Of a DNA stretch of 64,000 bases, positions 11,147 to 42,000 are shown one piece after another. The notes below the pieces were generated by a model. That model worked only from the letters and a program-made list of their open reading frames with translations. It was not told the DNA's origin and ran no database searches. The DNA is from Candidatus Chlorohelix allophototropha (GTDB lineage: Bacteria > Chloroflexota > Chloroflexia > Chloroheliales > Chloroheliaceae): the NCBI RefSeq assembly GCF_030389965.1, contig NZ_CP128400.1:2232001-2296000 (forward strand). Reading direction: 5' to 3'. Numbering within the stretch: position 1 is the first letter of the stretch; each line of letters begins with the position of its first letter. The position numbers and the translations under genes are program-made.

Positions 11147-11187
11147 TAAAACCGTAAAAAATATTCTTGAAAGGATATATTTCAATT

Positions 11188-11487: not shown

Positions 11488-11518
11488 AATCCAAATGGTA
11501 TAACACTTAATTGTGTGC

Positions 11519-22854: not shown

Positions 22855-24552
22855 TCACCAGCTATTTTTTGTATCAGGCACACAGGGCGAGTAACGATAT
22901 TTTGAACTGGTAGGATTTACCAAGTTCAAATCTCGGCGGGCTGAGTTCATGTGCCAGCTATTGGCGGTGGAACAAAGCGGGTTCACGTTATACTCGATAT
23001 TAAAGACCGCCTTGCCGTGATCAATGAAGCTGCTTTTTAGGTTATCGCACTCGTCATATTCCCAACACTGCTCGTTCAAAGTCCAGTCGAAATATTGCCA
23101 CAGTTCGCCCGTTTCACTGGTATTGCCCTTCAAGCCCACCGAAAGCCCCGCCGCATGTGCCATTTCGGCAATCTTCATATTATAGAAATTGTTCTGCTCT
23201 TTAGTTATGGCAAAGCCCGAGTCATTACTCCACACTTCGGTTTCATCCGGTTCGATGGCATCAAAGCCTTTATCCTTGCACCAATGCTGGATGCGGTCTT
23301 GCATAATCGGCAACAGAATATCGGTTTGTCTTATATCCAGCCAGTAAGAATTATCCCAGCCTACATCCGCGTTACCGATAACCGAGGCGGGAAAACGCCC
23401 CGCATCCGAGCGGTAAGATTCATAAACCCCCGCATCAAAGTAACAGATTACCTTAATATCAGGACTAAGCGCGTGAAGTTTGGCGACCGTTTCTGCGCTG
23501 GTTTTCTCGCCGTCAATGTCATACACGGTTACATTGGGTAGCACATCGCGCGGATACACAAATTCATCGGAGAGTTGCCAGTGCCAGTGAATTGGTTGGT
23601 CGGGCGTGGGCTTCCACACCGCAAGAGGCACTCCGCCCGAATAGCGCCACTGCAAGTAATGTTGTCCGATATTGCCCATTTCAACCCTAAAGGCTTCCGG
23701 GTTGGTGGGGGTATAGGTCATAACTCTGCGTTCAAAAAGCTGAACCAATACATCCTTCTCTGTCCCCGCCACGTTTGCCTTAATCCAGTAAGCCTCGGTA
23801 ACGGGATAGCCAAACACATTAGCGGTGGGGTTATCGGTATAAACCGCCCCTTTCTGATAGGATGAGCCATTCCAAACCTGCCCCATCAGATTCTGATAAT
23901 CCTGAAAAACTGTCGGTACATTGTGTCCTAGCGTGGGTTCATAATAGCCGATCAACACCTTGGCAGGGGGATTATTCAGGTTAAGGGTTTTGCCCGCTTT
24001 ATCAATCGAAAGCGTAATCGGCTGATTTAGCTGAGCTTGGGCGGTGTTTTCGCCCGGATTAAAGCTTATAACATTTTGAAAACTGGCATAGGTGGGCGCA
24101 AGCGCGTTGCCGCCGTTGGCATTGGAGTCACCCGCTACCGGAATATCGCTAGGCGAAAGTGGCGTGAATATATTATCACCGTCTTGGCGTTGCCCCGTTA
24201 CCAGTTCTTTGGTGAGTAAGCCATTGGTCACATACTTGCCGTCAGGGGATAACTCCATGCGGCTTTTGTCAAAATATTGCACCAGCCGTTTGCCGCCGGG
24301 CGCTTCCTGATAATCTTCCTGCAAAACCGCCAGCGAGTTTGGACCCCAAGTGAAGCCCCGTCCCGCGCCCGGCACGTCATTCACATACTTATCGCTGTAT
24401 TCCCACATAGCATTGAACTTGGGATTGGCAACAGCGGGGGCGGATTCGGCGGGATGGGGCGCATAGGCGATAATGAATATAGAAATGACAAGGGCAATCA
24501 GTAAAAAAAGCACCAATAAAAAGCGCATATTTCGGGTGGTAACAACGTGCAT
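22855..24552 (-). CDS. Secreted GH114 endo-polygalactosaminidase-like protein (copy B)
   Basis: 565 residues. An N-terminal hydrophobic anchor (about 10-32) is followed by a ~270-residue domain with FDKSRMELSPDGKYVTNGLL and PTNPEAFRVEMGN. I associate this type of domain with secreted Chloroflexota proteins; its function is unknown. The last ~250 residues are a GH114 domain very similar to copy A (CYFDAGVYESYRSDAGRFP; FDAIEPDETEVW; LNEQCWEYDEC). Start 24552 is chosen for its GAGG; an ATG seven codons upstream has none. Different N-terminal modules on near-identical catalytic domains suggest duplication with domain exchange. Confidence 0.87.
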   Translation of the reverse strand: MHVVTTRNMRFLLVLFLLIALVISIFIIAYAPHPAESAPAVANPKFNAMWEYSDKYVNDVPGAGRGFTWGPNSLAVLQEDYQEAPGGKRLVQYFDKSRMELSPDGKYVTNGLLTKELVTGQRQDGDNIFTPLSPSDIPVAGDSNANGGNALAPTYASFQNVISFNPGENTAQAQLNQPITLSIDKAGKTLNLNNPPAKVLIGYYEPTLGHNVPTVFQDYQNLMGQVWNGSSYQKGAVYTDNPTANVFGYPVTEAYWIKANVAGTEKDVLVQLFERRVMTYTPTNPEAFRVEMGNIGQHYLQWRYSGGVPLAVWKPTPDQPIHWHWQLSDEFVYPRDVLPNVTVYDIDGEKTSAETVAKLHALSPDIKVICYFDAGVYESYRSDAGRFPASVIGNADVGWDNSYWLDIRQTDILLPIMQDRIQHWCKDKGFDAIEPDETEVWSNDSGFAITKEQNNFYNMKIAEMAHAAGLSVGLKGNTSETGELWQYFDWTLNEQCWEYDECDNLKSSFIDHGKAVFNIEYNVNPLCSTANSWHMNSARRDLNLVNPTSSKYRYSPCVPDTKNSW

Positions 24553-24587
24553 AGTAACCTCACTTTTGCCCAAACTTAGGGCGTTGG

Positions 24588-27500
24588 CTATTTCCAGTGA
24601 GTATCCGGTATTACTTCCAAATAATAGAGATAGGGACGTAAGCGCGTTCCGCCATTATCAGCAAGCGCCAATTGCGTTTGGTTCAGCCATTGTATTGCCT
24701 CAATCGGGTAATTGGCTTGATAGAGCGCCGCCAATTCCCCCTTGTTGGAAGTGCCTAAATACCAGAAACGCAACTCGCCGCTACTATCCGCGCTAACGGC
24801 AAATTGCCGATCCGGTGAAAAGGCTACCAGCGTTATCCCGAATCTGTGACCTGTGAATTCTAGGCTTGGCTTGGCTTTTGCGCCGATGTGTTGGGATAAC
24901 ATGAATTGAGATAATTTGCCCGGCACATCCCACAGGCACACCTCTGCATCGCTTGAACCCGTTAGGATATAAGCCCCATCCGGCGAGAAGGCGACACAAT
25001 TCACCTCCGTGTCATGTGTCTCAAAAGTCACCAGCAGTTTACCGGAAGCGGTATCCCAGAGTCGGGCGGTGTTATCGCTAGAGCCGGTGAGAACTCTGGT
25101 ACTATCGGGTGAAAAAGCGACCGCGTTCACGCTTCCGCTATGTCCTTTGAAAACGGTCAGGAGTCTGCCGCTCTCCAATTCCCACAAACAGGCGGTATTA
25201 TCGCTAGAGCCGGTGAGTCCAAGGCGACTATCCGGCGAAAAAGCTAGGCTGGTTATCTCGCCGCTATGCTCTCTTAAAGTAGCGAGATAACGGTGCGAAC
25301 CTACCTCCCACAAACGCGCGGCGCTATCATTTGAGCCGGATAAGATGTATTTGCTATCGGCAGAAATAGCCACGCAGGTTACATTATCGCTGTGCCCCTC
25401 ATAAGAAGCGAGGAATTTTCCGGAAGAAGCTTCCCACATCCGCGCTACCATATCGCTAGAACCTGTCAAAATATGCCTGCCATCGGTGGAGAAAGCCACG
25501 CCGTTAACCCATTTCCGTTGCCCCTTGAAAGTAAGCAGCAAGCGTCCTGTGCCGCTTTCCCGCTGTCGCGCAGTGTTATCATCGAATCCGGTAAGTATTC
25601 TCAGACCGTCCGCAGAAAAAGCCACGCAAGCTACCACCGAGTTATAGCCTTCAAAGAGGGCTAGAAGTCGCCCCGAACTGGTCTCCCACTGACGAACGCT
25701 TTTATCGGCAGAGCCGGTGAGAAAGCTAGCGCCATCCGGCGAAAATGCCACGCTTCTAATCCAACTGCTATGCTCGCTGAAGGTAAACAGAATATTTCCG
25801 GTGGCGGTTTCCCACAAACGCACCGTGTGGTCATACGACCCCGTTAGTATTTTCTGTCCGTCAGGGGAAAAGGCGACTGCGCTAACGCCGCTATTATGTC
25901 CGCTGTAGAAAGTTAGCAACGCCCCCGAAGCCACTTCCCAAAGACAAGCGGTGTTATCATACGACCCCGTTAGTATTTTCTGCCCATCTGGGGAAAAGGC
26001 GACCGCGCTTACCCAATTGCTGTGACCCTTAAAAGTGGCAAGCAGTTGTGAGGAAGCCACTTCCCAAAGGCAAGCGGTGTTATCATACGACCCCGTTAGT
26101 ATTTTCTGTCCATCTGGGGAAAAGGCGACCGCGCTTACCCCACTGCTATGCCCTTTGAAGGTAGCCAGCAATTGACCGGAAGCGGTTTCCCACAAACGGG
26201 CAGTACCATCAAAAGAGCCAGTAAGTACGCGGCTGCTATCCGGGGAAAAAGCCAGTCCGGTTACTTTGCTGGTGTGCCCTTTATAAATCGCCAAAAGTTT
26301 ACCGCTGCCGAAATCCCACAGACAGGCGGTATTGTCGAAAGAGCCGGAAAGGATTCTTGAGCCATCCGGGGAAAAAGCCAAGTTTCTGACCCAATTCTTA
26401 TGGTCTGGTATTATTTCGGGGGGGGCTGTTTCTTCCGCGCCGATCATTCGCAATTGCTTGAGCCACAAGCGTTGCACCGGATGGGCGCTTGCCACCAACG
26501 CGAAGGGTGCGCCGCTCTCCACCCCACGATTATACAATTGCTGATAAAACAAAGCGGGCAAGCGTTCGGGCCATAAGCCGCTATCGGCTAAAAGCGTTTG
26601 TTCCTCCGCCAGCCAATGCCTTACCTGATTTAGCCTTTGCTTTACTTCCTTAGCCTCCAAGTAGCCCGCAAAATCAATCGCCCTAATTACCTGCGCCAAA
26701 CAGGTCTGGTAGCCATAGCGCAAGGCGCGTTCCTCTAAATGCTTCAGGCTTTCAATTTCTGCCAAAAGCCGCTCGCCTGCCCGCTCTCTTATCAGCCGAT
26801 TGCCCGTTGCCCCTTCAGGGGGGTTATGCGTTTCGACTCTCTCCAGCTTTTGCCCCACTTTCTTGATAAAGGGGTGGATTAGCAATTGGTTATCTGCCAG
26901 CAACTCTATCAAACCGAGTTTACTTAGCTCGTGGCAAGCTTTGGAGAGGGGGCTACCCTCCTCAAGACTCTCGCCTAACCCCCCGGCAAGCCCCAACAAC
27001 CCCGCCGGAATAGGGTAGGATTCGGGGCAATAGGAGGCTAATACCAGCAATTCCTGTGCTTTTACACTGGTAAGCTGTTCCCAGTTCAACCAAATTGCGC
27101 TATTCATAAAGGCAAACAGTCGGGCATTTGCGCTTGGCTGAAAGAGGGGCAGCAATTTTATAAAGAGTTTTTGCACCTGTGCCGCTAAATCTAATAACTT
27201 CAGTTGCGGTTCGCACTCTAGCCGCGCGCGCAACTGCACCAGAATAAGCGGCAAATAGCGGGCAGCTTTGCACAAAATCCGGGCTATCTCGGCTTCCTTC
27301 TCTTTTGAACCCGCCAACGCCTGTTGCAGCAATGCGGCGCGGCTAGAGTTGAGCAATACGCGCAGAGCCAAGTCTTCGGATAGTTTCTCCACTTCGTGCC
27401 GGATGAACTCAGGCTGTTTTCGGCTATCGCGGGTGGTTACCAGAATAGTTGCTTTGAATTCTTCGCCCAAAAGTTGGGGTAGGAATTGCAATAATAAAGC

Positions 27501-27920
27501 CTGATTCTCCACGTTATCCAAAATAAGCAATGCGCCGGGGTGTGCCTGCAAATAGCGGCTGAGTTGGCAAAAGCGTGACGCTTGCGCTGGCTCTTGAGCA
27601 AGCTTTTGGGCTTGAAGATTTGCTTCGGCAAGTGGGAAAGCAGCAACCTCATCAAATTTTGCCAAAGCCGCTTGCCATTCGGCTAGGGAAGTTCCCAAAC
27701 CGGTAACCCAGAAAATACCAGCGGGAAAATAGCTTTTTCCTCTCAGCCAATAAGCCAGTTCAACCGCTAACCCGGTTTTCCCGATACCGCCTGACCCTGA
27801 AATTACCACCAACTTTCCATTGCCTGAATTAATACTTTCGGGTTGGGTACTGAGATAGGCGGCGAGCTTTTCAATTTCGCCGGGGCGGGGTTGGTAGTGC
27901 GGATTGCGCCAATAAGGCAC
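24588..27920 (-). CDS. STAND NTPase with 14 WD40 repeats
   Basis: About 1110 residues. An NB-ARC-type NTPase begins at once, with a P-loop (GSGGIGKTGLAVEL, about residue 45), a Walker B-like strand (ALLILDNVENQ) and a sensor region (ILVTTRDSRKQP). A helical middle section follows to about residue 500. Then come 13 clear WD40 repeats plus a degenerate one, enough for two seven-bladed propellers. Repeats three to five are almost identical in DNA as well, with a 126-base period, so they were copied recently. The GTG at 27920 has no ribosome site; the frame stays open about 85 bases further upstream, so the start is unsure. No effector domain is visible. Likely a signalling or defence-type sensor. 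Confidence 0.88.
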   Translation of the reverse strand: MPYWRNPHYQPRPGEIEKLAAYLSTQPESINSGNGKLVVISGSGGIGKTGLAVELAYWLRGKSYFPAGIFWVTGLGTSLAEWQAALAKFDEVAAFPLAEANLQAQKLAQEPAQASRFCQLSRYLQAHPGALLILDNVENQALLLQFLPQLLGEEFKATILVTTRDSRKQPEFIRHEVEKLSEDLALRVLLNSSRAALLQQALAGSKEKEAEIARILCKAARYLPLILVQLRARLECEPQLKLLDLAAQVQKLFIKLLPLFQPSANARLFAFMNSAIWLNWEQLTSVKAQELLVLASYCPESYPIPAGLLGLAGGLGESLEEGSPLSKACHELSKLGLIELLADNQLLIHPFIKKVGQKLERVETHNPPEGATGNRLIRERAGERLLAEIESLKHLEERALRYGYQTCLAQVIRAIDFAGYLEAKEVKQRLNQVRHWLAEEQTLLADSGLWPERLPALFYQQLYNRGVESGAPFALVASAHPVQRLWLKQLRMIGAEETAPPEIIPDHKNWVRNLAFSPDGSRILSGSFDNTACLWDFGSGKLLAIYKGHTSKVTGLAFSPDSSRVLTGSFDGTARLWETASGQLLATFKGHSSGVSAVAFSPDGQKILTGSYDNTACLWEVASSQLLATFKGHSNWVSAVAFSPDGQKILTGSYDNTACLWEVASGALLTFYSGHNSGVSAVAFSPDGQKILTGSYDHTVRLWETATGNILFTFSEHSSWIRSVAFSPDGASFLTGSADKSVRQWETSSGRLLALFEGYNSVVACVAFSADGLRILTGFDDNTARQRESGTGRLLLTFKGQRKWVNGVAFSTDGRHILTGSSDMVARMWEASSGKFLASYEGHSDNVTCVAISADSKYILSGSNDSAARLWEVGSHRYLATLREHSGEITSLAFSPDSRLGLTGSSDNTACLWELESGRLLTVFKGHSGSVNAVAFSPDSTRVLTGSSDNTARLWDTASGKLLVTFETHDTEVNCVAFSPDGAYILTGSSDAEVCLWDVPGKLSQFMLSQHIGAKAKPSLEFTGHRFGITLVAFSPDRQFAVSADSSGELRFWYLGTSNKGELAALYQANYPIEAIQWLNQTQLALADNGGTRLRPYLYYLEVIPDTHWK

Positions 27921-28300: not shown

Positions 28301-30435
28301 TCACTTATTAAAAGAAGAACACTCCAAGCGATTTCCACCCAACGGGAGGTTATTTCCTGACATCCCGTTTATCACCTGCTTGCCGCCAAACCCCTGAACG
28401 GTTATGTGCTTTAGATGAACATTGCCCATTAAAACCAGCCCGTTTTGGCTCACGCCACTACCATTTATGATGATACTACCACCGCTACAGTTTCCGCCAT
28501 CCAAAAATACGCCCGTTGGAATAAACGGTAATTTGCCCGTTACTGTGACCGTATTATTCGAGCCTAACCCGCTGAAGGTAATCGCATCCCCCGCATGCAC
28601 ATGCTTTAAAGCATAGGAGAGTGTGCCAGAGGTATTACTACTCAACACTTCTCCGGCATCCGTAGGGTTAGTAACTATCGGCACCGTCACCACGAAAGTA
28701 ACCGGGTCAGAAGTATTGCCGTTCGGATTGGTAACGGTCACTTGCCAGTTACCGGCGGTTAAAATATCGGCAGCGCCAATTTGAGCGGTTAGCTGGCTTG
28801 CATTAATATAAGCGGTAGGGCGGGGCGCACCCTGCCAATTCACCGTTGCCCCATTTACAAAATTGCTACCGTTGAGGCTAAGCGTAAAAGGGGCTTCCAT
28901 TTGTACGCTGGTATTGGGCGATAACGCGCTTATGATGGGCAAGGGCGTAGCGGTAACGCTAATACGATCTAGCACATTTTTGGTGACTTGCTGAATACCG
29001 CCGTTAGTAAGGCTGCGATTAGGGCCGTATCCCGATATGTAATCTAGAGCGTAAGACCAGTATATCGAACCTGTGGAAAAAACCCAAGCCCCATTACTGA
29101 GTTGGTAAATAGTAGCATTGGAAGTGGAAGTTACTTTGTTAAAATTTATGGGCGATGAACTGGATAACTCTACCAAGCGGGCGGGTTCTAGCCCATTGCT
29201 ATAACGTTTGTCCCACTCATAGCCTACGATACCGGGCACATGGCTGCCATTTTGCAAACCGGAGTTGGCATAGATCCAATGATTGCTATTCTCCACCACA
29301 AAATCTGCCCCAATATCGTTATTATTATAGCTATCATACATTACCCCGATCAACTGATTTTCCGGGCGACTGATTGCCGGATTGGCATTGCCCGGCGGAA
29401 GCTCACGCCACAGGTAGGTGGTGTCCGGGCTGTTGGGGTTGCTGATATAAACCGGGTCTTCTCTCCAATAATCTTTATAACACACAATCACCCGGTTGTT
29501 GTTCTCCAGCCGAATTTGCCAATATACGGCGTTAGCCCCAAAGAAAGCAAGTGCTTTCCGGCGTTGCGAGAAGCCAGCGCATTGTCGTACATCGCCCCGC
29601 TCCAATATTCGTCATGCCCGGTGGAAAGTAACGCCTTGTGAGAAGCCAGCAGCGTAGCATTGCTATGAAGATCAATATCGGTACAGTACGAAACGTTGTA
29701 GCCGTTTTTCTCAATAAAACGCAAGAGGGGCATTTCCCAACTTGTAAAGAAGGTGCTGGCATAATTATTGAGCGGGCGGTCGAAGGAGACTTTCCGCGCC
29801 CCTACTTTATTGACGCTATCATCAGGATAGAGGCTCTTGCCGCCGAAATAGTTGTAAGCTTGATAGGTATTGACGCTGCATTTGAACAGCAAATCGGCAT
29901 TGCTGGAATCATCGCGCACCACAAAATAGATGTAATTCTGGAAGCCGTTCGCGTTGGTCAATTTAGCCAAATATGCGCCGGTAGTCCAACCGGTAGCGGG
30001 AACGTTCAGAGTGTAGGAAAGCGACCAGTTGCAAGCCACCGTACCAAGCGTGTCGGGCGTTGGAACGGTTTGATTTATGCCACTAAGCGACCCGATACTT
30101 TGCAGCAAGCGCCCCCCCGTACCGCCATACCAACCCATGCGATATATTTCAATAGTATAGGTTTGCGCAACATTGACCGAGACGTAAAAGTTTAGCGAAC
30201 TCCCGATGTTGACACTGGTGGCAGCGGCATAACCCGTAATCTCAAGATTAGCATCGGTAGAATACTTGGTAATTTGCCAGTTAGTAGTCCCCGGTTGTAG
30301 ATTCTCTATAGGAATGGGGTTTTGCGCCAGAACCCTCGTAATATTCGTTAGGCTGTTCAGTCCTGCAAGCCCCGCCATGCCAACTATGCCGTATTTTAAA
30401 AAGCGGCGGCGGCTGATAGCGCGGTGTTTTGCCAC
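28301..30435 (-). pseudogene. N,N-dimethylformamidase beta-subunit-like protein, Tat-exported, frameshifted
   Basis: Two ORFs (30435-29488 and 29605-28301) together make one protein of about 710 residues. The first has a Tat signal (SRRRFLKYGIVGMAG) and the family core up to STGHDEYWSGAMYDNALASR. The expected continuation, AGKHLAFFGANAVYWQIRL, lies in the other frame. One G appears to be missing near 29547, where CACTTGCTTTC would need to read CACTTGGCTTTC. The second part adds an IPT/TIG-like beta domain (PIISALSPNTSVQ) and a beta-helix-like tail. It is the last gene of the polysaccharide operon, 17 bases after the second deacetylase. It may be a real pseudogene or a sequencing error. Confidence 0.8.
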
Positions 30436-30452: not shown

Positions 30453-32630
30453 TTACTTTATCGGTAGAGTAACCGATTGTCCCGCCTTTAGGGAGACATA
30501 CACAATTTTTTGACCGCCATAACTTTCCACAGCGCTACAAGCCGGACAGGTGGTAGCTAAGGATAAGCCTGTTACCGGAATCCTCACGTCTTTATTAGCG
30601 GTCAAGGTGATAGAGCTATCCGGGAGGAGGGTTGCAGTAACATCGGCGGCGATGTAATCGGTTCTTTTGGACATGTTATAGCCCAACCGATCCATTGCCC
30701 CCTGCGTACAGTTTGGGTCATTGGCACAAAGTGGGTCGTTTTTGGGAATGGGCTGCCCGCCATCGCTTATTATAGGAAGGGTATAATAGCGGTTGTACTT
30801 GGCTAGAGTGGCATCCAACAAATCGCTCAACAGAGAGTGAGTTCCATCATAAGCCCGTAAATTGGGTTGGTGGAACATCAGCGGATCCATATCGCCTTTA
30901 AGCAGATAGGTTAGCAATATACTGCTTTCCCGCTCTATTATCTGCTGGTAATTATCAACATGCCAGAAATCCCCATTGGGGTAAAAACAATTATCTTCCG
31001 CCAGCCACTCATCGGGAGTGGTAACATTGAAATATTGGTCGGTAGGGTGGCGCGGGATTAGAAAAAGATTGAATTCGCTATCTTGATTCAGATATATGCC
31101 CACATTGGGAGAGGGATTGTTGTAATTGGGCAGGGAGGTATTGCTGACTAAATACCGAATGTTCATGTCATAAATCCCCTTTAGCGCGGCTGAATTTTTT
31201 AGACCTGAAACATTCGGGGTAATTAGGCTGTGGCTGCTATAGTTAGTAGGATTAACAAACCCCACTTTATAGGCAGCGCTATTGTTCTGTTCAATTTGAT
31301 ACTTCATGAAATTATAGGTAACGGCATCTAGGTCGGGGTGTTGGTAGGTATGCGTGACCCAGAAAAACTCATCCTTGAGCTGAAGCGCCATCGGGGTAAG
31401 CGTATCGGGATTGTACAACCCGGTAGTACCTATCCCCACAAAAGGAAGTTCTATTTTTAAGTCGGGAGTAGTGGGGCGGGCTTGCTGGGTTTTTTGCCAA
31501 TTAGCAAAAGCCTTCAGGTCGTTGCCGCTCATACGGTAGAAATTAAAAGAGGGGTCGGCATAAGAAGAACTACACGCCGCCCCGACTTTCCAGATGTAAT
31601 TGCCGATCAAAACATCATCCGGCTGTACTGTCAGGTAAGTGTGGAAATCCCCCAAATATAGCCCCTTAGTGACCCAATTAATCAAGCCATACGATAACAC
31701 GATGGTGTGTATCAAATTGGGGTTACTATCAAAGGTCAGGGTTAGGGTTTGCACCCCATCAGAGTCATTATGCACTAATGCCAAAGCATTACCGTTATTA
31801 TCGGTCAGTAGCGGGAAAGTATTCGCATCGTCTAGCGGTTTGGCAAGGTAGGCATACGCCTTTTCAATTATCAGAGGGCTGGCAACATTTAGGTAAGCTG
31901 AAAATAAAGATTTGCCTGATACCGTTTTATCGGTGGTAAATTGCACCGAAAGGGGATTCTTGCCCGTATCAAGGGTGGTGCCGACCTCTTGAAATCCGGT
32001 TGCAGGAGTGGGGCTTGAATACCAGTTGATTTGCCGGATATTAAAGCTGGCTTCAAATTTATGCAAAACTTGCCATTCTGTTTGAGTCAACGCGCTGGCA
32101 TAGTTTGTACCATCGTTATAAATCAGATTACTGGTGGTAAGAATGACTCCTTGAAAATAGGCATGATTGCCCCCATCTGATAGTATCGCGGATAAGCGAT
32201 CGGTTGCCGGGTCTTGGGGCAGAGGGGCAGTTTTAACCGCCAGATAGGGTACGCCGATATAATCCAACGCTTGCTGAATAGCGGGTAAATCCTCTTCTTT
32301 ACCGTCTGCCGCCAGCACTAACACTTTCATATCGAGTTGGGTTTTATTAGAAGGTGAGCCTACCACCGGGGGGGTTACTTCAGAGATTAGCGGTACTGTT
32401 CTTATTTCTTGGCGAGGAATCCCCACCGGACCGGGCAACAAATCATTGTCCCCCAGTAGCTGTTGGGTAGCAGTTAACCCGCTGATGGGAGTCGATTTCG
32501 GGGTATTGGTTTGAACAGGCGTTGAGGTAAACGGATTGAAAATAACTAGCGCAATGACCAGACCAGTAACCAGCAGAGTGACAATTTCAAAAAGCCTGCG
32601 CCAGAGATTCTGGCTTAAAAACTTGGACAT
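30453..32630 (-). CDS. Agd3-type (CE18) polysaccharide deacetylase, copy 2, membrane-anchored
   Basis: 725 residues. An N-terminal helix (about 15-32) anchors the protein. The rest follows the Agd3 layout: a Rossmann-like start (MKVLVLAADGKEEDLPAIQQ), a beta sandwich, then the deacetylase barrel with the metal-binding pair Asp-Asp in VQPDDVLI and the H-x3-H motif in VTHTYQH. Also present are GLKNSAALKGIYDMNIRYLV and PRHPTDQYFNV. In Aspergillus, Agd3 removes acetyl groups from galactosaminogalactan so it sticks to surfaces. The residues after the Asp pair (GNY) differ from copy 1 (DDD). The start has AAAGG ten bases upstream. It follows the glycosyltransferase gene in the same direction. Confidence 0.87.
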   Translation of the reverse strand: MSKFLSQNLWRRLFEIVTLLVTGLVIALVIFNPFTSTPVQTNTPKSTPISGLTATQQLLGDNDLLPGPVGIPRQEIRTVPLISEVTPPVVGSPSNKTQLDMKVLVLAADGKEEDLPAIQQALDYIGVPYLAVKTAPLPQDPATDRLSAILSDGGNHAYFQGVILTTSNLIYNDGTNYASALTQTEWQVLHKFEASFNIRQINWYSSPTPATGFQEVGTTLDTGKNPLSVQFTTDKTVSGKSLFSAYLNVASPLIIEKAYAYLAKPLDDANTFPLLTDNNGNALALVHNDSDGVQTLTLTFDSNPNLIHTIVLSYGLINWVTKGLYLGDFHTYLTVQPDDVLIGNYIWKVGAACSSSYADPSFNFYRMSGNDLKAFANWQKTQQARPTTPDLKIELPFVGIGTTGLYNPDTLTPMALQLKDEFFWVTHTYQHPDLDAVTYNFMKYQIEQNNSAAYKVGFVNPTNYSSHSLITPNVSGLKNSAALKGIYDMNIRYLVSNTSLPNYNNPSPNVGIYLNQDSEFNLFLIPRHPTDQYFNVTTPDEWLAEDNCFYPNGDFWHVDNYQQIIERESSILLTYLLKGDMDPLMFHQPNLRAYDGTHSLLSDLLDATLAKYNRYYTLPIISDGGQPIPKNDPLCANDPNCTQGAMDRLGYNMSKRTDYIAADVTATLLPDSSITLTANKDVRIPVTGLSLATTCPACSAVESYGGQKIVYVSLKAGQSVTLPIK

Positions 32631-32847: not shown

Positions 32848-35800
32848 CTAGGCGGCTGCAAAATAATAATAATCCGCCGAAGCAAGTACCTTTTGGGTTA
32901 GCCGAGAAGAAGCAATTACAAAAGCCAACGAACCGGCAATAAAAGCTGCCAAGCAGTATTTGAAATCCACGTTCAAGGCTAGCGGGATTCCTAGCACCAG
33001 CATAACTATCATGCCTACTACCACTGCCCGTACCGCTACGGTAGGACGCGCCAAGGTTAGCCCGAACATGCAGTTAAACAGCCCTTGCCCTAACCAGTAA
33101 TAAGCGACCAACCCGGCGATAAAGAAGATAACCACCGCATCGGTATTTACCCCAATCCACGCTGAAAATATATCGAAGTGGATTAATAGCCAGATGGGGA
33201 TAGCAAAAACTACACTGACCAAGAAAAGGGCGATACTATAACGCCGCCGCTCATGTCGGTAGAAAACCAATAACCGCCGCCCGAACTGATCAACCGCTAA
33301 CCCAGAGGTGTTTGCTTGGGCTACTTTTGCTTCTTCCCAAAACAGGCGTACGGCGCGTTCGGCAAAACCGCCCACCAATACCAGCGGGGGCAACGCCAAG
33401 GTTAAGCCTAGTTCCAGACTGGCAATAGCCCAAGAACGCGATTGATCCCCGCTTACTTTTCCTAACCAACCCAAAAAGTGGGGGGCGGTGATAAACGCCA
33501 CATAGAACATACCATAGGTGAAATAAGGGGCGGCTTCGTATAGCATATAAGAATTGGAGGGTAGCGCGGCTCTTTCGCGTTTAACGTTTTTACGAATTTT
33601 GGCAAACCTTCCTCTAACCGTATAGAAAATTATCCCTAATGTGGCAACAAAACCGACTACCGTACTCACAATAAGGTGTTCTCTTAAAAAGAGTCCCGTT
33701 AAAAGGTTGCTTGCAATTGCCAACCCTAACCCGCTCGCCAACGCAATACCGAGCCACACTTGCGCTTTCAACAGACTCAAAGAGCCACCCGCCAGCCAGA
33801 TAATAGAAAAGGCGGTATAGGCGAGACAGAACAACAAACGGTCTTCAAAGGTATAAATATTGAACCAGCTTGCAAGTAGCATAGCCGTAATTGCCAGCCC
33901 GATTACTGAGAAAGCTGCCAAGCGCAGGCTACGCGCCAGATATTTACCGGCAGAGCGGGAGTTGTTCAGGCTCAAACAGATAGAGGTTCGGCGCATTATT
34001 GCTTGTAGGAAGCCGTTTGTTAATAACAGCCCCGCGCTAATACCCAAACTTAACGCCATTATCTGGTCAGAGGCAAACTGCCCGGAAATTGCATAAAACT
34101 GAATAATGCCAATTATCAGCAAGCCCGGCAAGAGCGCAATCGGTCCGCTGCTGTACTGCATTATTTTTAAGCGCAAACTACTGAGCGGCGCGGGACGGTC
34201 TTTGCGCGTAACCCCGACCATTGGGGGATGCTCTTCTCGGATAATTGCCAGCACTGCTTTAGCTAAAGCAAAAGTATCAGGCGCACCGTATTGATGCCGC
34301 GCAATATCATCGGTTGTGCCGAACGATTCGATAATAGCCGTTACTTCAAGAAAATCCAGCGGCTGAGGGCAATGGCGCATCACTTCATCCGCCATAACTC
34401 GAACCATTTCAACGGTCACTTCCACTCGCTCAGGTTCTGCTACGATTTCTTGGGTAGTGTCGCTGATAATAGCCACATTCTCAAACAGTATTTCTTCGTC
34501 AGCCTGAGCGATAATATCCGCTTCCGAATAGCTATTGTTTGCTTGTGACAGGTAACTGCTTCCGGTAATTATTAATTGAGAGACACCGCTATGCCCGTTA
34601 AAAGCGGAGGGGGCAGCGAATTCTTCCTGCTCGTATTCGTGGAAGGCATAGGAGGGCTGCCTTGAACCATCGTTTAGGTTTACCAGCAAGCCCGACTCTC
34701 CACCGGAAGGCATAAACATGAAGGCATCTGTCAGCGCTACATCGATGGGCAAGGCTGAGTTTAATACTTTGGTTTCCACTCCGGCGGCAAATAAAGCTTC
34801 CGGCATGGTGCGGTTGGTAATTCGGTAGTAGCTGGTCATATAGGCTTCGCGCGATTGGCGAACGCTGAACTCTTGCAAAGCCTTTTCGCGAGCAGCCACG
34901 CCGAGTTGAGCGCAAAGCTCTTTGTCGTTCATCAATTTAAGGATTGCGTCTGCCATTTCCTTTGGATTGCGTGGCTCTACCACGAAACCGCAGCCCGCGA
35001 TTTGCTCTGGAATACCCCCCACAGAGGTTGCTACAATCGGTTTTCCGCAAAGCATCGCTTCCAGAGTAGCAAAGGGAAAGCCCTCGGAAATGCTGGAAAG
35101 CACTACAACATCGCCTTCATTGTAAGCTTCGGCGGTATTGGAAGCGTAGCCCTTAAAAATAACAGCCTCTTCCAGTCCAAGGCTGGACTGTAAAGCTTTG
35201 CATTCTTCGTAATAAGGGATATCTTCCAGCGGTGGCGAACCATAAAGCTGGAATTTAATATCAGGGCGCGATTCATGTACTAGGGCTGCCGCCTTCAACA
35301 AGGTCATTACATCCTTGAGCGGATTAATGCGTCCAACCCACACTACTACGGGAGGTTCGCCAATTGGTTTGCCCGCCGCGTAAAATTTCTGGTCGTCCGC
35401 GCCATAATAAATAGTTCTTAAACGGTCTTTGACCGCGCCGCTCTGCAATTCCCAGCGTTGGTTGTAATCGCAGCAAGGGGATACCTGATCGCTGGCAGCG
35501 TAGCTGAGGTCGGTCATGCGCCGCGCAAAACGCAACTTGAAAAGTTTCAGAAATAAGCTGCCGGAAGATTGGGCTTCTTCCAGATAACGTTCACGCAGAT
35601 AAATGCCATGCTCGGATAGTAGAAAAGCGGTGCCGTATTCCAGTTTGGCTACTATCCCAATCATTGTGCTGATACCCGCCATTGAGGTATGGGTAACATC
35701 TACCTTCGGAAGTGGGTTAGCCAGTGGGAAGAACCAATGGTAAAGCCACTGTAATGCGGTAGTAATATCCTCTAAAGCGAACTCCGCATTGGGATAACCG

Positions 35801-36348
35801 TAATTAGCTGCCGACTGTGGGAAACTCTGTTGGACGGTATCGACAAAACTATCCCAAACCGCTTTGGAGCGCATCACCGTATCAAAGTTATGCTCAAGAT
35901 AAAAGCGATACATTTTATGAAGGTATTCACCGAGTCGCTCAGGCTCTGAATCGCTTAGAAATAAATCCCTGATAAAGCTGCTAAATATCGGCACGAATTT
36001 TTCGGCTATGATTTCCTCAGAGGTGTGCTGCTTTTTCTTGAGCAGTTCGAGCATGCCTAGGTTTTGGTTAAGCTCGGTAGCTTCGCGGATACCCCACAGC
36101 GGAATAGGGCGAAAATCGACAACATTGTCGAGCAGGGTTATTTGGGGTGTAAGATGCGGGTCAGCGGCAATGCTGAATACTGTAAAATTCACTTCAGGCA
36201 AATCCCGTATCAATAGATGACACCAAGTACTGACCCCACCCCAATGAAATGGGTAGGTTCCCTCAGTTACCAGCATTACTTTTAGAGCTTCAGAAGTCTC
36301 ACTAACTGCTGGTACAATTTCTTCTTCTGCTGGAATTAATTGATTCAC
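32848..36348 (-). CDS. PelF-PelG-like fusion: GT4 glycosyltransferase plus polysaccharide transport domain
   Basis: 1166 residues from a GTG with AAGGG eight bases upstream. Residues about 22-510 are a PelF-type GT4 transferase: EGTYPFHWGGVSTW at the acceptor side, VVVWVGRINPLKD, and the E-x7-E nucleotide-sugar site (SEGFPFATLEAM). A ~180-residue linker follows. From about 700 there are about twelve transmembrane helices (MQYSSGPIALLPGLLIIGII onward) resembling PelG, the inner-membrane partner. In Pel systems PelF and PelG are separate proteins; here polymer synthesis and export are in one chain. Expected substrate UDP-GalNAc. It corresponds to Gtb3 in the fungal galactosaminogalactan cluster. 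Confidence 0.87.
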   Translation of the reverse strand: MNQLIPAEEEIVPAVSETSEALKVMLVTEGTYPFHWGGVSTWCHLLIRDLPEVNFTVFSIAADPHLTPQITLLDNVVDFRPIPLWGIREATELNQNLGMLELLKKKQHTSEEIIAEKFVPIFSSFIRDLFLSDSEPERLGEYLHKMYRFYLEHNFDTVMRSKAVWDSFVDTVQQSFPQSAANYGYPNAEFALEDITTALQWLYHWFFPLANPLPKVDVTHTSMAGISTMIGIVAKLEYGTAFLLSEHGIYLRERYLEEAQSSGSLFLKLFKLRFARRMTDLSYAASDQVSPCCDYNQRWELQSGAVKDRLRTIYYGADDQKFYAAGKPIGEPPVVVWVGRINPLKDVMTLLKAAALVHESRPDIKFQLYGSPPLEDIPYYEECKALQSSLGLEEAVIFKGYASNTAEAYNEGDVVVLSSISEGFPFATLEAMLCGKPIVATSVGGIPEQIAGCGFVVEPRNPKEMADAILKLMNDKELCAQLGVAAREKALQEFSVRQSREAYMTSYYRITNRTMPEALFAAGVETKVLNSALPIDVALTDAFMFMPSGGESGLLVNLNDGSRQPSYAFHEYEQEEFAAPSAFNGHSGVSQLIITGSSYLSQANNSYSEADIIAQADEEILFENVAIISDTTQEIVAEPERVEVTVEMVRVMADEVMRHCPQPLDFLEVTAIIESFGTTDDIARHQYGAPDTFALAKAVLAIIREEHPPMVGVTRKDRPAPLSSLRLKIMQYSSGPIALLPGLLIIGIIQFYAISGQFASDQIMALSLGISAGLLLTNGFLQAIMRRTSICLSLNNSRSAGKYLARSLRLAAFSVIGLAITAMLLASWFNIYTFEDRLLFCLAYTAFSIIWLAGGSLSLLKAQVWLGIALASGLGLAIASNLLTGLFLREHLIVSTVVGFVATLGIIFYTVRGRFAKIRKNVKRERAALPSNSYMLYEAAPYFTYGMFYVAFITAPHFLGWLGKVSGDQSRSWAIASLELGLTLALPPLVLVGGFAERAVRLFWEEAKVAQANTSGLAVDQFGRRLLVFYRHERRRYSIALFLVSVVFAIPIWLLIHFDIFSAWIGVNTDAVVIFFIAGLVAYYWLGQGLFNCMFGLTLARPTVAVRAVVVGMIVMLVLGIPLALNVDFKYCLAAFIAGSLAFVIASSRLTQKVLASADYYYFAAA

Positions 36349-36413
36349 TTTGATACCCTTATTAATACGCTGCTTTATTTAAATCTTTGATTATTTGTAA
36401 TTATTCATCCCCT

Positions 36414-36830
36414 TCCCATCAAGGAGGGAAGGAGAGTTCAAGGGGACACCCCTTGCCACCCCGCACAGGGGTTGCCACCCCTGAGAACCCCGCTCGGATT
36501 CCCTTAGCTCCCCTCAAGGAGGAAGGAGAGAGGGAGGAGTTCAAGGGGACACCCCTTGCCACCCCGCACAGGGGTTGCCACCCCTGAGAACCCCGCTCGG
36601 ATTCCGTTAGCTCCCCTCAAGGGGGGAAGGAGAGAGGGAGGAGTTCAAGGGGACACCCCTTGCCACCCCGCACAGGGGTTGCCACCCCTGAGAACCCCGC
36701 TCGGATTCCGTTAGCTCCCCTCAAGGGGGGAAGGAGAGAGGGAAGAATTCAAGGGGACACCCCTTGCCACCCCGCACAGGGGTTGCACCTGCCTGTGACC
36801 CGGGATAGGGGATACCCAAACCAACTCCAC
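36414..36830 (+). repeat. Tandem repeat, 104-base unit, about 3.5 copies
   Basis: The start TTCAAGGGGACACC recurs at 36437, 36540, 36644 and 36748, a period of 103-104 bases. Each unit contains a GC-rich palindromic part (CACCCCGCACAGGGGTTGCC) and a purine-rich part (AAGGAGAGAGGGAGGAG). The fourth copy is partial and runs into GTGACCCGGGATAGGGGATA. Short open frames inside are artefacts of the repeat. It lies between the epimerase gene and the glycosyltransferase gene and could affect expression across the operon. Confidence 0.85.
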
Positions 36831-36894
36831 GAGAAGGGCTATTGCAAGTTCGGCATTGACATCTTCAGTTCGCCCCAAATGTTAAGAAAATCGG

Positions 36895-37035
36895 TTTTGT
36901 AGGGGCGGTTCGTGAACCGCCCTGCCTGAATCCCTCAAATTGAACCTATCCAACGCAGGCGCATCCCGATGCGCCCCTACCCAAACCAATTCCACGAGAG
37001 GGCGTGATTGGACACGCCCCACAAATCACCTTACG
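36895..37035. repeat. Palindromic repeats downstream of the epimerase gene
   Basis: Three hairpins of the window-wide family: GTAGGGGCGGTTCGTGAACC (36899 on), GGCGCATCCCGATGCGCCCC (36958 on) and GGGCGTGATTGGACACGCCC (37000 on). Each has GGCG/CGCC ends with different arms. Nothing else is visible between 36830 and 37041. Confidence 0.65.
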
Positions 37036-37041
37036 CCCTTA

Positions 37042-38079
37042 CTAAGCCGCGTTTACATTGAGCTTATCGGGCAACATGCTGAGTACCACATCTCGCAAAA
37101 TATCGTCCAAAGTGGCGCGAGGTTGCCAGCCGATGTATTGGTTTATTTTGGAGATATTGGGGACGCGCCGCCGCATATCCTCAAAACCTTCCGCATACGC
37201 CTGAGCATAGGGGATAAATTTGATGTCATCGGTGCTGCCTAGCCCATCGCCATCTAACTGGTTCACCGTTTTTAACACACGCTGCGCCAATTGCAGGATG
37301 GATACTTCTTCGGTTGAGCCGATGTTGAACACCTGACCAACCGCTTCCGGGCATTCCGACAACCCGATGATTGCTCTAACGGCATCTTCTACGTGGCAGA
37401 AGCAGCGGGATTGCTGACCATCGCCGTAAACGGTCAATTGCTCTCCGCTTATAGCTTGCTGTACTAAGCGCGGCACAACCATGCCGTAATGTCCGGTTTG
37501 GCGCGGACCGACCGTGTTAAACAGCCGGAAAATTACTACCGGAAGTCCCTTCTGGCGGTAATAAGCCAAGCCGAGGAATTCATCAACCATCTTTGAGGCG
37601 GCATAACCCCAACGACTGTTAGCAGTAGAACCTAGCACCACGTCATCATCTTCGCTGAAGGGGAAGCGGATACCCTTACCGTAAACTTCAGAGGTAGAGG
37701 CAATCATTACCTTAACCCGATAGCGCAGGGCAGCTTGCAAAATCGCGTCCGTACCCATAACGTTGGTTTCAATGGTACGCGCGGGGTCTTCCACTACCAA
37801 TTTCACGCCCACTGCCGCCGCCAAGTGAATAATGGTGTCACATTCGCTGGCTAAACGGTCGAGTACCACCTCACTGGTCAGGTTATCCACTACGAAGCGA
37901 AGGTTGGGATGCCCCATCAAGTGCTGGACATTCTCAAAACTCCCGGTAGAAAGGTTATCGAGAATCGTTACATGGCAATCTTTGTTCAATAACGCTTCCG
38001 TTAGATGGCTGCCGATAAAGCCCATTCCGCCGGTAATTAGAATCCGTGAAGATTTGCGAGGTAAATGAAAATTAAGCAT
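37042..38079 (-). CDS. NAD-dependent UDP-sugar 4-epimerase (Uge/PelX-like)
   Basis: 345 residues of the extended short-chain dehydrogenase family: NAD site ITGGMGFIGSHL at residues 15-26, catalytic STSEVYG, and the Y-x3-K pair in WGYAASKMVDE. NTVGPRQTGHYGMVVPR is typical of sugar-nucleotide epimerases. The probable role is to interconvert UDP-GlcNAc and UDP-GalNAc for the neighbouring PelF-like transferase, as Uge3 and PelX do in known systems; substrate choice is inferred from context. The ribosome site is AGGAG. It lies 40 bases after the dehydrogenase gene in one operon. Confidence 0.88.
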   Translation of the reverse strand: MLNFHLPRKSSRILITGGMGFIGSHLTEALLNKDCHVTILDNLSTGSFENVQHLMGHPNLRFVVDNLTSEVVLDRLASECDTIIHLAAAVGVKLVVEDPARTIETNVMGTDAILQAALRYRVKVMIASTSEVYGKGIRFPFSEDDDVVLGSTANSRWGYAASKMVDEFLGLAYYRQKGLPVVIFRLFNTVGPRQTGHYGMVVPRLVQQAISGEQLTVYGDGQQSRCFCHVEDAVRAIIGLSECPEAVGQVFNIGSTEEVSILQLAQRVLKTVNQLDGDGLGSTDDIKFIPYAQAYAEGFEDMRRRVPNISKINQYIGWQPRATLDDILRDVVLSMLPDKLNVNAA

Positions 38080-38119: not shown

Positions 38120-39598
38120 TTAGAGCAACACAATTCGGTCTGAATGCCCCTCAACGTGACGGGTAGCGTTTCTGGTATCAACTACTAAATGACTGTTCTC
38201 CACAATCCAATTCCAGTCAAAACAGCGATGGGCGGTAGTGATAACCACACAATCTGCTTGGTTCAAAGCATTTTCATCTAGCTCTATCGAGTTTAAGGAC
38301 AAGTCGGCAACAGCTAATGCCGGGACATAAGGGTCGTGATAAGCTACATTCGCGCCTTTTTCCTGAAGCAAGTGAATCAGGTCAAGCGCAGGAGACTCTC
38401 GAAGGTCGCCCACATCTTCTTTGTAAGAAACGCCTAGCACCACCACCCGCGAGCCTCGAATGGGCTTAGCGTTTAGGTTCAGGGCATCGGAGATTTTCGT
38501 CAGCACGTAATGGGGCATCCCGAAATTGATTTCTTCGGCAAGCTGGATAAAACGCGCATTGTAGTTCAAAGTTTTGAGCTTCCAAGCGAGATAATGCGGG
38601 TCAACCGGGATGCAATGTCCGCCCAAACCGGGACCGGGATAGAAGGTCATAAAGCCGAAGGGCTTGGTTTTCGCTGCGTCAATAACTTCCCAAACGCTCA
38701 CGCCCAAATGCTCGCACATAATGGCGACTTCGTTAATCAAGCCGATATTCACCGCGCGGAAGGTGTTTTCCAGTAGCTTGACCATTTCCGCCGCACGGGG
38801 GGATGATACCGGTACTACCGTTTCAATCGCGCTGCCGTAAAGCTTCAAGGCGACCTGTAAACAGGTAGGGGTCACGCCGCCGATTACTTTAGGAGTAGTG
38901 CGAACAGTCCAGTCCTTACGACCCGGATCAATTCTTTCAGGGGAGAAAGCGAGGAAGAAATCCCGCCCAACCACCAGCGCCGAGCGACTATCCGAGTTAA
39001 AACCGTGCGTGTTGTTCTTATTCTGAGCCTGCTCCAGCAAAGGCAGGATTAATTCTTCGGTAGTGCCGGGATAAGTGGTACTTTCCAGCACAATCAGCAT
39101 TCCGGTGTGGATGCGCAGCGCAATTTCATCTGCCGCTGAAATGATGTAGGACATGTCCGGGTCTTTGGTTTTGCTCAAGGGAGTCGGCACACAGATAATA
39201 ACGGCATCCACATCCTGCAAAATGTTGTAATCGGTAGTTACGCTCAAGCTGCCGGTTGCTTTCTCGCCGTCCTGTTTCCCAACGCGGGGTTGGCGATTAT
39301 TTAGCCCGGTCAGAGGCGTGATTATAGCTGCCACACGCTCGGAGGAAATATCCTCAATATGACTCTTTCCGGCGTTAAGGGTGGCGACCCTTCTTTTATC
39401 AATGTCCAAACCTACTACTCTGAAACCCGCTTCGGCATAAGCTACTGCCAGCGGCAATCCTACATAACCCAAACCGATAATTGCTACGATGGCTTGACGA
39501 GTCTCAAGCCGATTCAAAAGAGCTGCGCCTGCGCTAGAAACTGTAACGGTGCGTTTGTTATCTATAATTACTTGCTCATTTATTTCGGTAACGGTCAT
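38120..39598 (-). CDS. UDP-N-acetylhexosamine 6-dehydrogenase
   Basis: 492 residues of the nucleotide-sugar dehydrogenase family (WbpA/WecC-like). The N-terminal NAD domain has IGLGYVGLPLAVAYAEAGF. The substrate region contains the catalytic Cys in GPGLGGHCIPVDPHYLAWK, and the C-terminal domain carries VVLGVSYKEDVGDLRESPA. It would oxidise C6 of a UDP-HexNAc to the uronic acid, so the polymer may carry acidic sugars as well as GalNAc. Start 39598 is set six bases after AAGGAG; another ATG lies three bases earlier. Fungal GAG and Pel loci lack such a gene, a notable difference. Confidence 0.9.
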   Translation of the reverse strand: MTVTEINEQVIIDNKRTVTVSSAGAALLNRLETRQAIVAIIGLGYVGLPLAVAYAEAGFRVVGLDIDKRRVATLNAGKSHIEDISSERVAAIITPLTGLNNRQPRVGKQDGEKATGSLSVTTDYNILQDVDAVIICVPTPLSKTKDPDMSYIISAADEIALRIHTGMLIVLESTTYPGTTEELILPLLEQAQNKNNTHGFNSDSRSALVVGRDFFLAFSPERIDPGRKDWTVRTTPKVIGGVTPTCLQVALKLYGSAIETVVPVSSPRAAEMVKLLENTFRAVNIGLINEVAIMCEHLGVSVWEVIDAAKTKPFGFMTFYPGPGLGGHCIPVDPHYLAWKLKTLNYNARFIQLAEEINFGMPHYVLTKISDALNLNAKPIRGSRVVVLGVSYKEDVGDLRESPALDLIHLLQEKGANVAYHDPYVPALAVADLSLNSIELDENALNQADCVVITTAHRCFDWNWIVENSHLVVDTRNATRHVEGHSDRIVLL

Positions 39599-39688
39599 CA
39601 TTAACTCCTTAAAGTCCATATATAAGAACTATATTTCTTCGAAACAGCAAGCTGAACTAAACCCAACAACTAGCCAGTATCAGCTTTT

Positions 39689-39734: not shown

Positions 39735-41867
39735 TTAAGGGGCTGGGAACGAGATGGTCTGATTGGCAGTCATGTTTATATGTGAGATGGACTGACCGCC
39801 ATAAGTTTCGGGCGTACCGTACTTGACACCTGTAACCGGAACAGTCGCGGCATTTGCAACTTTTACTGTGATGGTTTTTGAACCCGGATTCCAAGTGGCA
39901 GTCACACCGGAGGCGTTGTAAGCCATCCGATTGGTCATGGCAACCCCTATTTCGTGCTGTGTCATGTTCTTGATCGGCAGATTGGAAACCGCGCTGTACT
40001 TGGTCAAAGTAGCGTTAATCAAATCGCCTAACAAAGAGTTAGTAGTGTTGTATGCGCCAACGTTAGGCTGGTGGAACATTACGGGGTCAATGTCCCATTT
40101 GAGTAACCACTGCAACCACAGATTCGATTCGGTATCCAGAATCTGGTTATAGGTAAGATTTGTTGTCCAATAGCGCCAAGCTCCTCCGGCGCAAGTTCCG
40201 GTAGGCCCGTAGTAACAGTTGTACTCCGACACCCATTGAGCTTGAGTTCTGAGGTTATAGAAAAGATTGGTGGTATGTCGCGGAACAACCAGCAAACCTG
40301 AAGGAGTAGTAAAGCCTGTGTTTGGGCTTGGGTTATTCCAACCTGCGCGGGAAGTGTCGGATATTAGATAACGGATACCCCAATTGTAGGCGGCTTGCTG
40401 GAAGGTTGGATTATACAAACCTGATATATCGGGCTGCACCATCGCATCTTTGTAGAAATTGGTAAAGCCGCTCTGAGTAGCGTAATCAAGGTTTTGCTGC
40501 AATTCAGCGACCGTATCCGCCGCCGTAATAGCATCAAGGTTAGCGTGGGTGAAGGTATGGGTAATCCAGTTAAACTGTGCTTTATTGGCTACTACTGCGG
40601 ATGAAAGAGTATCCGGACTATAGATTCCGGTTGAGCCTTCACCGTTGAAAGGAAATTCTATTTTCAAACTGGCAGCGAGTGGGAACTTTGTCCTGATATT
40701 ATTCTGCCAAGTTATAAACCGGGTTAAGTCGGTGCCGGACATACGGAAGGTGATGCCCGTAGTGTCGGTCATGGCTTTGGTATCCCAAATGTCATCATCA
40801 ATCAAGATGTCATCAGGCTGAATACCCATCGAGGCATGCCGCTCACCCAAGAAAACACCCTTGGTAAGCCAATTGATAGTGCCGTAGGAAAGTAGCAAAG
40901 TATGCACCAGATAGGGGTTACCATCGGCGGTTATTGCCAAATTCTGGCGACCATCGGCATAAGTTTTAACGGCAGCAATGGTGTAAACTCCATTGGTAGT
41001 GGTCAGCAAGGGAGTGACGTTCTCACCGGGCGCAACTGTCGCCAAGTAAGTCCACGCGCCACTGATAGTAATGGTGGCATTGGGCTTTAGGTCTGAGAAA
41101 ACCGCATTCCCGGCAGTGGTTAACTTGGTTTGAAGCGGGGTAGTAAGTGTATCTTGATAAGCATAGGTTGGGTCGGCTAAGCCATAAGTATCGGGCCAAC
41201 CGGGAAGCGTGTAAGCGGTCACTTGCCGAATACCAAACATCGCTTCGTAGTTCCAAAGAGTATTCCACTCAGCGGTGGTGAAGGCGCTAGGCCAACTATT
41301 GGTAGTCGCATCATAATACAATAGACTTCCGGTAGTTAAAATGATGCCCTGATAATAGCCGTGTGAAACGCCATCCCACAGGAGGCTATCGGTTAGCGTA
41401 GTTTGCGAAGCAAGCAGCACATTGTAAGGGAGACCGAGTTGATCCAATGTAGATTTAATCGCCGGGAAATTCGGCTCAGTGCCATCTGCGGCAACTACCA
41501 GAATTTTCATATCGCGTGGGTCAAGAGTATGATTAGCTACAGCGGCGGCAGCCAACAAAGTTGGTGCGGCGGGGGCAGTAGTCAGCGCATCCACGCCCAC
41601 AGTTAAGCCATCAATTGCCGAGTTCCCTCTAGGTTTATTTTTTTTCTTGGAAGTGCTAACAGGTTGTTGGGGTTTGGAAGGTATTTTAGTTGGTTCTACT
41701 ACACCGGGAACGACATCCAGATGCCCTGCTTTGAGTTTATTATTTGCAGCGTCAACATCGACTGTCGAGGTTAAAAACGTGGTGGCGATTGCTAATAAGG
41801 CAAACAATAAGCCAAAACGCATAACTACAGACAATCTGGGATTTTGAAAAGGTTTCTTTTTACGCAC
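39735..41867 (-). CDS. Agd3-type (CE18) polysaccharide deacetylase, copy 1, secreted
   Basis: 710 residues from a GTG preceded by GGAGG; the longer ORF to 41945 has no ribosome site. A signal peptide ends near VDVDAA. The domain order follows Aspergillus Agd3: MKILVVAADGTEPNFPAI (Rossmann-like), GIILTTGSLLYYD and YEAMFGIRQVTAY (beta sandwich region), then the barrel with IQPDDILI (metal Asp pair), ITHTFTHANLDA (H-x3-H) and PRHTTNLFYN. It would partly deacetylate an extracellular GalNAc polymer. First gene of the biosynthetic operon, ahead of the dehydrogenase, epimerase and synthase genes. Confidence 0.9.
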   Translation of the reverse strand: MRKKKPFQNPRLSVVMRFGLLFALLAIATTFLTSTVDVDAANNKLKAGHLDVVPGVVEPTKIPSKPQQPVSTSKKKNKPRGNSAIDGLTVGVDALTTAPAAPTLLAAAAVANHTLDPRDMKILVVAADGTEPNFPAIKSTLDQLGLPYNVLLASQTTLTDSLLWDGVSHGYYQGIILTTGSLLYYDATTNSWPSAFTTAEWNTLWNYEAMFGIRQVTAYTLPGWPDTYGLADPTYAYQDTLTTPLQTKLTTAGNAVFSDLKPNATITISGAWTYLATVAPGENVTPLLTTTNGVYTIAAVKTYADGRQNLAITADGNPYLVHTLLLSYGTINWLTKGVFLGERHASMGIQPDDILIDDDIWDTKAMTDTTGITFRMSGTDLTRFITWQNNIRTKFPLAASLKIEFPFNGEGSTGIYSPDTLSSAVVANKAQFNWITHTFTHANLDAITAADTVAELQQNLDYATQSGFTNFYKDAMVQPDISGLYNPTFQQAAYNWGIRYLISDTSRAGWNNPSPNTGFTTPSGLLVVPRHTTNLFYNLRTQAQWVSEYNCYYGPTGTCAGGAWRYWTTNLTYNQILDTESNLWLQWLLKWDIDPVMFHQPNVGAYNTTNSLLGDLINATLTKYSAVSNLPIKNMTQHEIGVAMTNRMAYNASGVTATWNPGSKTITVKVANAATVPVTGVKYGTPETYGGQSISHINMTANQTISFPAP

Positions 41868-42000
41868 TATTACCTCCAAATTGGTATCAATAACGATGGC
41901 AAGGTGCATCAAAGAGCTTGCCTGTGCCAAACGACGTCCTAGCAAAGAGAAGTGATATACCTTGTCGATTTTGATAGCTGGCTTTTAACCAGTTCCAAGT

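Follow-up and report, generated by a model that had tools for sequence, protein, structure and literature searches.

A gene joining a PelF-type glycosyltransferase to a PelG-like exporter in a putative GAG-type locus of 'Candidatus Chlorohelix allophototropha'

The fused gene and its neighbourhood

The window, that is, the whole stretch of 64,000 nucleotides from the phototrophic Chloroflexota bacterium 'Ca. Chlorohelix allophototropha' analysed here, carries on its minus strand one long gene for a glycosyltransferase joined to a membrane exporter, as well as several genes for sugar-nucleotide and polysaccharide-modifying enzymes:

19840-21573, minus: second GH114 gene (Glyco_hydro_114 5.2e-64)
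22075-22848, plus: Spherulin-4 family protein, Sph3 counterpart (PF12138 4.9e-19)
22855-24573, minus: GH114 (endo-alpha-1,4-galactosaminidase family), Ega3 counterpart (Glyco_hydro_114 7.9e-62)
30453-32630, minus: Agd3-like deacetylase (CE18 + CBM87), directly downstream of the fused gene (Agd3_CE 2e-30, CBM87 4.6e-15)
32848-36348, minus: fused PelF-type GT4 and PelG-like MOP exporter gene, 1166 aa, GTG start
37042-38079, minus: NDP-sugar epimerase/dehydratase, upstream of the fused gene (Epimerase 1.3e-55)
38120-39619, minus: nucleotide-sugar 6-dehydrogenase (NDP-sugDHase TIGR03026, 428.6 bits against a cut-off of 189.8)
39735-41945, minus: second Agd3-like deacetylase (Agd3_CE 4e-34, CBM87 1.1e-20)

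The fused frame opens with GTG at 36348, its stop ends at 32848, and no internal stop occurs over the 1166 residues, while the plus strand of 32848-36348 has stops throughout. The first-pass annotation, which had described PelF-type and PelG-related parts in one 1166-residue protein, was right in this and in its coordinates, with the frame lying on the minus strand.

The Aspergillus galactosaminogalactan (GAG) cluster consists of Gtb3, Uge3, Agd3, Ega3 and Sph3 (PMC4817252, PMC7229062). Family-level counterparts of all five could be identified in the window (the synthase, the epimerase, two Agd3-like, two GH114 and one Spherulin-4 gene), and because they surround the fused gene, the locus would be classed by its gene families as GAG-type rather than canonical Pel. 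No gene for PelE, PelB or PelC was recognised in the neighbourhood. The GH114 and Spherulin-4 genes lie about 8-16 kb downstream of the fused gene, with other genes between. The two GH114 genes flank the Spherulin-4 gene and are 79% identical over 255 aa, and the two Agd3-like deacetylases are about 39% identical to each other. By position and superfamily, the epimerase appears to be the counterpart of fungal Uge3; it passed no specific NCBIfam equivalog cut-off among the matches listed, and a close homologue directly follows the pelF and pelG-like genes in two Actinomycetota loci (L045 and L052). The dehydrogenase, 40 bp upstream of the epimerase, passed a subfamily cut-off only, its best specific matches being UDP-HexNAc 6-dehydrogenases, and none of the related loci examined yielded a homologue of it.

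About 690 bp (36349-37041) separate the fused gene from the epimerase. This gap contains a 104-bp tandem repeat at 36421-36786 (3.5 copies, 96% match), which may set the fused gene apart from the epimerase/dehydrogenase transcript. Two further minus-strand features were observed between the fused gene and the GH114 genes. One, at 28301-30435, is a DMFA2_C (N,N-dimethylformamidase-like) gene that has a TAT-like start and is spread over two overlapping frames (profile positions 1-212 in 29488-30435 and 207-369 in 28301-29605), which indicates a frameshifted gene or a sequencing error. At 24588-27920, a 1110-aa protein has many WD40 repeats and an N-terminal part that is NTPase-like by eye.

The two halves of the protein and the tether

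Four parts could be distinguished along the fused protein:

34804-36291, minus: GT4 domain, aa 20-515, DUF3492 plus Glycos_transf_1, with R340, K345 and E422-x7-E430 (Pfam, NCBIfam)
34414-34803, minus: tether, aa 516-645, acidic and predicted to be disordered (pLDDT <50 for aa 520-644)
34219-34413, minus: conserved helical piece, aa 646-710, PQPLDxLExxAxxESxGxTDxxAxxxYGAxDxFxLA (alignments; helices in the model)
32851-34176, minus: 12-helix MOP-superfamily exporter domain, PelG-like, aa 725-1166 (AlphaFold2, Foldseek and VIA, hhalign with controls)

In the N-terminal half, Pfam matched DUF3492 at aa 23-307 (2.8e-49) and Glycos_transf_1 at aa 330-488 (5.3e-34), and the NCBIfam PelF model (NF038011) scored 180 bits over aa 24-490, well past its cut-off of 100. 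The active-site residues R340, K345, E422 and E430 were invariant across five relatives. The earlier description of a PelF-like GT4 domain with an E-x7-E site thus holds. We call this half a PelF-type domain, not PelF, because its GT4 is joined to a membrane domain and is not the stand-alone cytoplasmic protein to which the name PelF applies.

In the full-length AlphaFold2 (AF2) model, aa 520-644 had pLDDT values below 50, and the net charge across aa 516-660 was -19. Because of this low-scoring stretch, the linker would be better given as about 130 residues. The 180 residues first proposed did include a linker predicted to be disordered, but aa 646-706 belong to the exporter, since in alignments the separate PelG-like proteins of split relatives start with the same helical piece. 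Modelling of the full chain, which the first-pass annotation had suggested, did not fix how the two halves are arranged relative to each other (pTM 0.46).

For the C-terminal half, direct Pfam and NCBIfam scans returned nothing above cut-off, and the informative results all came from profile-profile comparison and fold search. AF2 modelling of the C-terminal part from a 13-row alignment (pLDDT 81.5, pTM 0.80) gave first a short helical stretch (model residues 2-61) and then 12 long transmembrane helices. Foldseek matched this model to the MOP superfamily (E 2.8e-6), and VIA-align Z scores were about 25 for MATE, 21.8 for WzxE and about 19 for MurJ. The predicted fold is clearly that of a MOP exporter. 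No entry named PelG was among the fold matches listed, and a PDB sequence-profile search for a solved PelG gave nothing meaningful.

When the PelG HMM (PF16933) was run against the whole genome, its best match was this C-terminus, at 23.7 bits, under the gathering cut-off of 29 bits; in a second PelG scan, the window protein had no PelG match at E up to 1. The profile of the 12-member C-terminal family aligned by hhalign to a profile of 10 canonical PelGs with 90.9% probability (score 59.2, 412 columns), whereas controls run in the same way reached 64% over 206 columns for Wzx, 1.3% for MurJ, 0.6% for MFS and less than 1% for shuffled or reversed PelG. Of the profiles compared, that of PelG is by a wide margin the best match to the family, ahead of those of Wzx, MurJ and MFS. 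One member, from Psychrobacillus (L048), passed the Pfam PelG cut-off over its full length (29.1 bits). The canonical PelG start MAGIGFELRKL is absent from the fused protein, which has about 80 aa with the helical piece instead. Because the curated PelG cut-off and the canonical N-terminus are both missed, the exporter half is PelG-like, not PelG. Thus, the resemblance of the C-terminal helices to PelG claimed at first stood as regards the 12 helices and homology over the core, but not as regards the curated cut-off and the canonical start; and with the PelG match beating the controls, an unrelated flippase having no relation to PelG, the outcome that had been named as counting against the claim, was not what was found. 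As a separate observation, a Cetobacterium PelG (L153, 601-2238) is annotated at 2118 bp, or about 705 aa; it is thus well above the usual length of 456 aa and carries a C-terminal extension.

Split relatives and a second fusion

An unfused set of the same gene families is present in the genome itself (L033): an Agd3-like gene, PelF (538 aa, 8847-10463), a PelG-like protein (531 aa, 10441-12036) and GH114, the pelF and pelG-like genes overlapping by 23 bp in different frames. Although its families are the same, this paralogue is split, belongs to a different clade and shares only 39% (glycosyltransferase) and 21% (exporter) identity with the fused protein. The same kind of unfused pair was found in 'Ca. 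Chloroheliaceae' L227-5C (G002), a member of the same family. The grouping of Agd3, PelF and PelG-like genes recurs in loci of Chloroflexota, Actinomycetota, Myxococcota and Acidobacteriota, and in split relatives it comes with an epimerase, GH114 or Spherulin-4.

A scan of 84,980 species yielded 80 loci; as it was based on short conserved patterns, more fusions may exist. Only one other clear fusion was found among the 80, a protein of 1160 aa from a Dormibacterota MAG (L046) that is 40% identical end to end and whose gene has an epimerase gene and an Agd3-like gene after it; almost every other relative is split. The search for other fusions in Chloroflexota that had been proposed at the outset found none: PelF exceeded its cut-off in 6 of 400 genomes of that phylum, a sample in which the Dormibacterota genome is not listed, and it was fused only in the window genome. 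Samples of the phylum and class of the Dormibacterota genome and of one Actinomycetota class also yielded no further fusion, and among plasmid records none covered 80% of the fused query. Two other relatives may be mentioned. In Streptomyces sp. MNU76 (L064, 6896-10474, plus strand), one frame of 1192 aa holds PelF, a tether and an LExxGxTD motif with about 7-8 helices; it was left uncounted as a third fusion, its congeners being split and an indel possible. The closest PelF (50%) was found in a Myxococcales MAG (L044, 5073-8572), where the PelG-like gene is divergent and not in tandem.

In a combined tree, a clade supported at 100/100 united the window protein, the Dormibacterota fusion, L044, L045 and L052, while the own-genome paralogue fell outside it; within the clade, the window protein grouped with the split Actinomycetota pair L045/L052 (97/95). 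A single clade of the two fused proteins was rejected, since this constraint cost 20 log-likelihood units (p-AU 0.0099). The two tethers share little sequence. Both two separate fusions and one old fusion with later splits fit these results, the latter because the tree cannot tell gain from loss.

The fusion had also been offered as a possible reason why the system can do without PelD and PelE. PelD is a c-di-GMP receptor. In the window genome, PF16963 (PelD_GGDEF) matched nothing at E up to 1, and PelD did not exceed its cut-off in any of eight genomes, including two with split GAG-type pairs (G002, G012) and two with canonical split pelF-pelG (G111, G262); a sub-threshold match of 17.9 bits was seen in G045. 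Because split relatives and the split paralogue of the same genome likewise have no PelD over cut-off, its absence appears to go with the wider group and not with the fusion, and that explanation is not sustained.

Proposed mechanism and comparison with known systems

We consider it probable that the product of the gene is a single-chain polymerase-exporter, and that its polymer is an amino-sugar exopolysaccharide of GAG/Pel type. In the cytoplasm, the N-terminal GT4 of PelF type would polymerise a hexosamine activated by a nucleotide; the likeliest is UDP-GalNAc, for which the neighbouring epimerase would be the source. The flexible tether of about 130 residues would keep the GT4 beside the 12-helix PelG-like MOP exporter, and the GT4 may dock on the short helical piece at the N-terminus of the exporter. 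The growing chain would then pass, perhaps by direct transfer, through the exporter half. In B. cereus, PelG has been modelled as an exit pore that passes the polymer to its deacetylase (PMC13254593), which by analogy supports export through the PelG-like half. Outside, the secreted Agd3-like enzymes would de-N-acetylate the chain, and the GH114 and Spherulin-4 proteins would trim it. It is also a reasonable inference that a fused chain fixes the ratio of synthase to exporter at 1:1.

Several alternatives should be weighed against this reading, two of which concern the frame itself. Relatives are mostly split, with genes overlapping in different frames that a single indel could join, and the DMFA2_C gene of the same window is broken across frames, so an assembly or sequencing artefact might be suspected. 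However, the frame is kept through a long tether, each half aligns over its full length, and the genome appears closed: the assembly has five contigs and 6,086,194 bases in total, contig C2 has 2,453,413 bases, and a photosystem-I-type reaction-centre match lies on contig C1, and for 'Ca. Chlorohelix allophototropha' L227-S17 a closed genome of five replicons with a 2.45 Mb chromosome 2 and a pscA-like gene on chromosome 1 has been published (PMC10972752). Because the assembly fits this closed genome and a second homologue is fused end to end in another lineage, a frame arising by chance or from assembly is unlikely, and we regard the artefact as very improbable. The single frame might also give two working proteins, if translation started internally near aa 648-657 or if the tether were cut by a protease; in-frame ATG codons do occur where the conserved PelG-like piece starts, and the tether is predicted to be disordered. 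By eye, however, no clear Shine-Dalgarno sequence precedes those ATGs, and the tether frame is open in both fused homologues, which makes two products improbable.

The other two alternatives concern function. The C-terminal half could be a flippase for lipid-linked oligosaccharides (a Wzx/MurJ-like MOP protein) fused to a GT4 for initiation or extension, the whole belonging to a Wzx/Wzy-type pathway. The MOP fold is shared, its structural matches include WzxE and MurJ, and the Wzx profile matched it, though partially and more weakly (64%); but PelG gave the better, full-length profile match, the GT4 half exceeds the PelF cut-off, and in split relatives PelF and the PelG-like gene stay beside Agd3-like genes, so that a flippase of this kind seems quite unlikely. 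As to the product, its sugar could be a uronic acid or another sugar than GalNAc, since the epimerase passes no specific equivalog cut-off and the dehydrogenase only a subfamily one. With the same synthase architecture, the dehydrogenase and epimerase might supply a hexosaminuronic acid for an anionic or zwitterionic polymer of neither GAG nor Pel type; the position of the dehydrogenase and its UDP-HexNAc 6-dehydrogenase matches agree with this. On the other hand, no homologue of that enzyme turned up in the related loci inspected, and two N-deacetylase genes and GH114 point to GalNAc/GalN, and we think such a product rather unlikely.

We therefore keep to the single-chain polymerase-exporter as the preferred reading. 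For the membrane crossing of Pel- and GAG-type polymers, a one-chain protein makes the coupling of synthase and exporter testable, and a natural example of such a protein, accompanied in its genome by an unfused paralogue, is a small, defined target for reconstitution. In addition, the presence of the full GAG-type family set close to a fused synthase in a bacterial genome is relevant to the proposal that the fungal cluster came from bacteria (PMC7229062). As a tentative and somewhat doubtful generalisation, single-chain cationic amino-sugar polymerase-exporters may have arisen at least twice from split pelF/pelG-like pairs and match the plan of Gtb3, the tethered form being a minimal complete synthase-exporter without a c-di-GMP receptor.

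In Pel systems, PelF and PelG are separate proteins that act within a PelDEFG complex. The present protein resembles the systems of P. aeruginosa and B. cereus in its PelF-family GT4, its 12-helix MOP exporter and the order of the partners, F then G. It differs in being one tethered chain with a divergent exporter half and another N-terminus, in a genome that has no PelD above cut-off and has Agd3-type deacetylases. As for the fungal synthase, Gtb3 is credited with synthesis and export by inference only, and the likeness to the Aspergillus GAG cluster consists of the counterparts of its five gene families, Gtb3 being likened by description only. Published descriptions present Gtb3 as a single integral-membrane glycosyltransferase with both a polymerising and an exporting role (PMC7229062, PMC4817252). 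The present locus differs from the fungal cluster in being bacterial, in having two Agd3 and two GH114 genes and an extra dehydrogenase, and in the distance of its GH114 and Spherulin-4 genes. The bacterial agd3 operons reported by Bamford et al. (2020) encode a glycosyltransferase of the cytoplasm and a membrane protein with multiple spans, together with GH114 and, in some cases, Spherulin-4 (PMC7229062). In those operons the glycosyltransferase and the membrane protein have separate genes, whereas the locus in the window has one gene for both; compared with the published operons, it is this fusion that is new.
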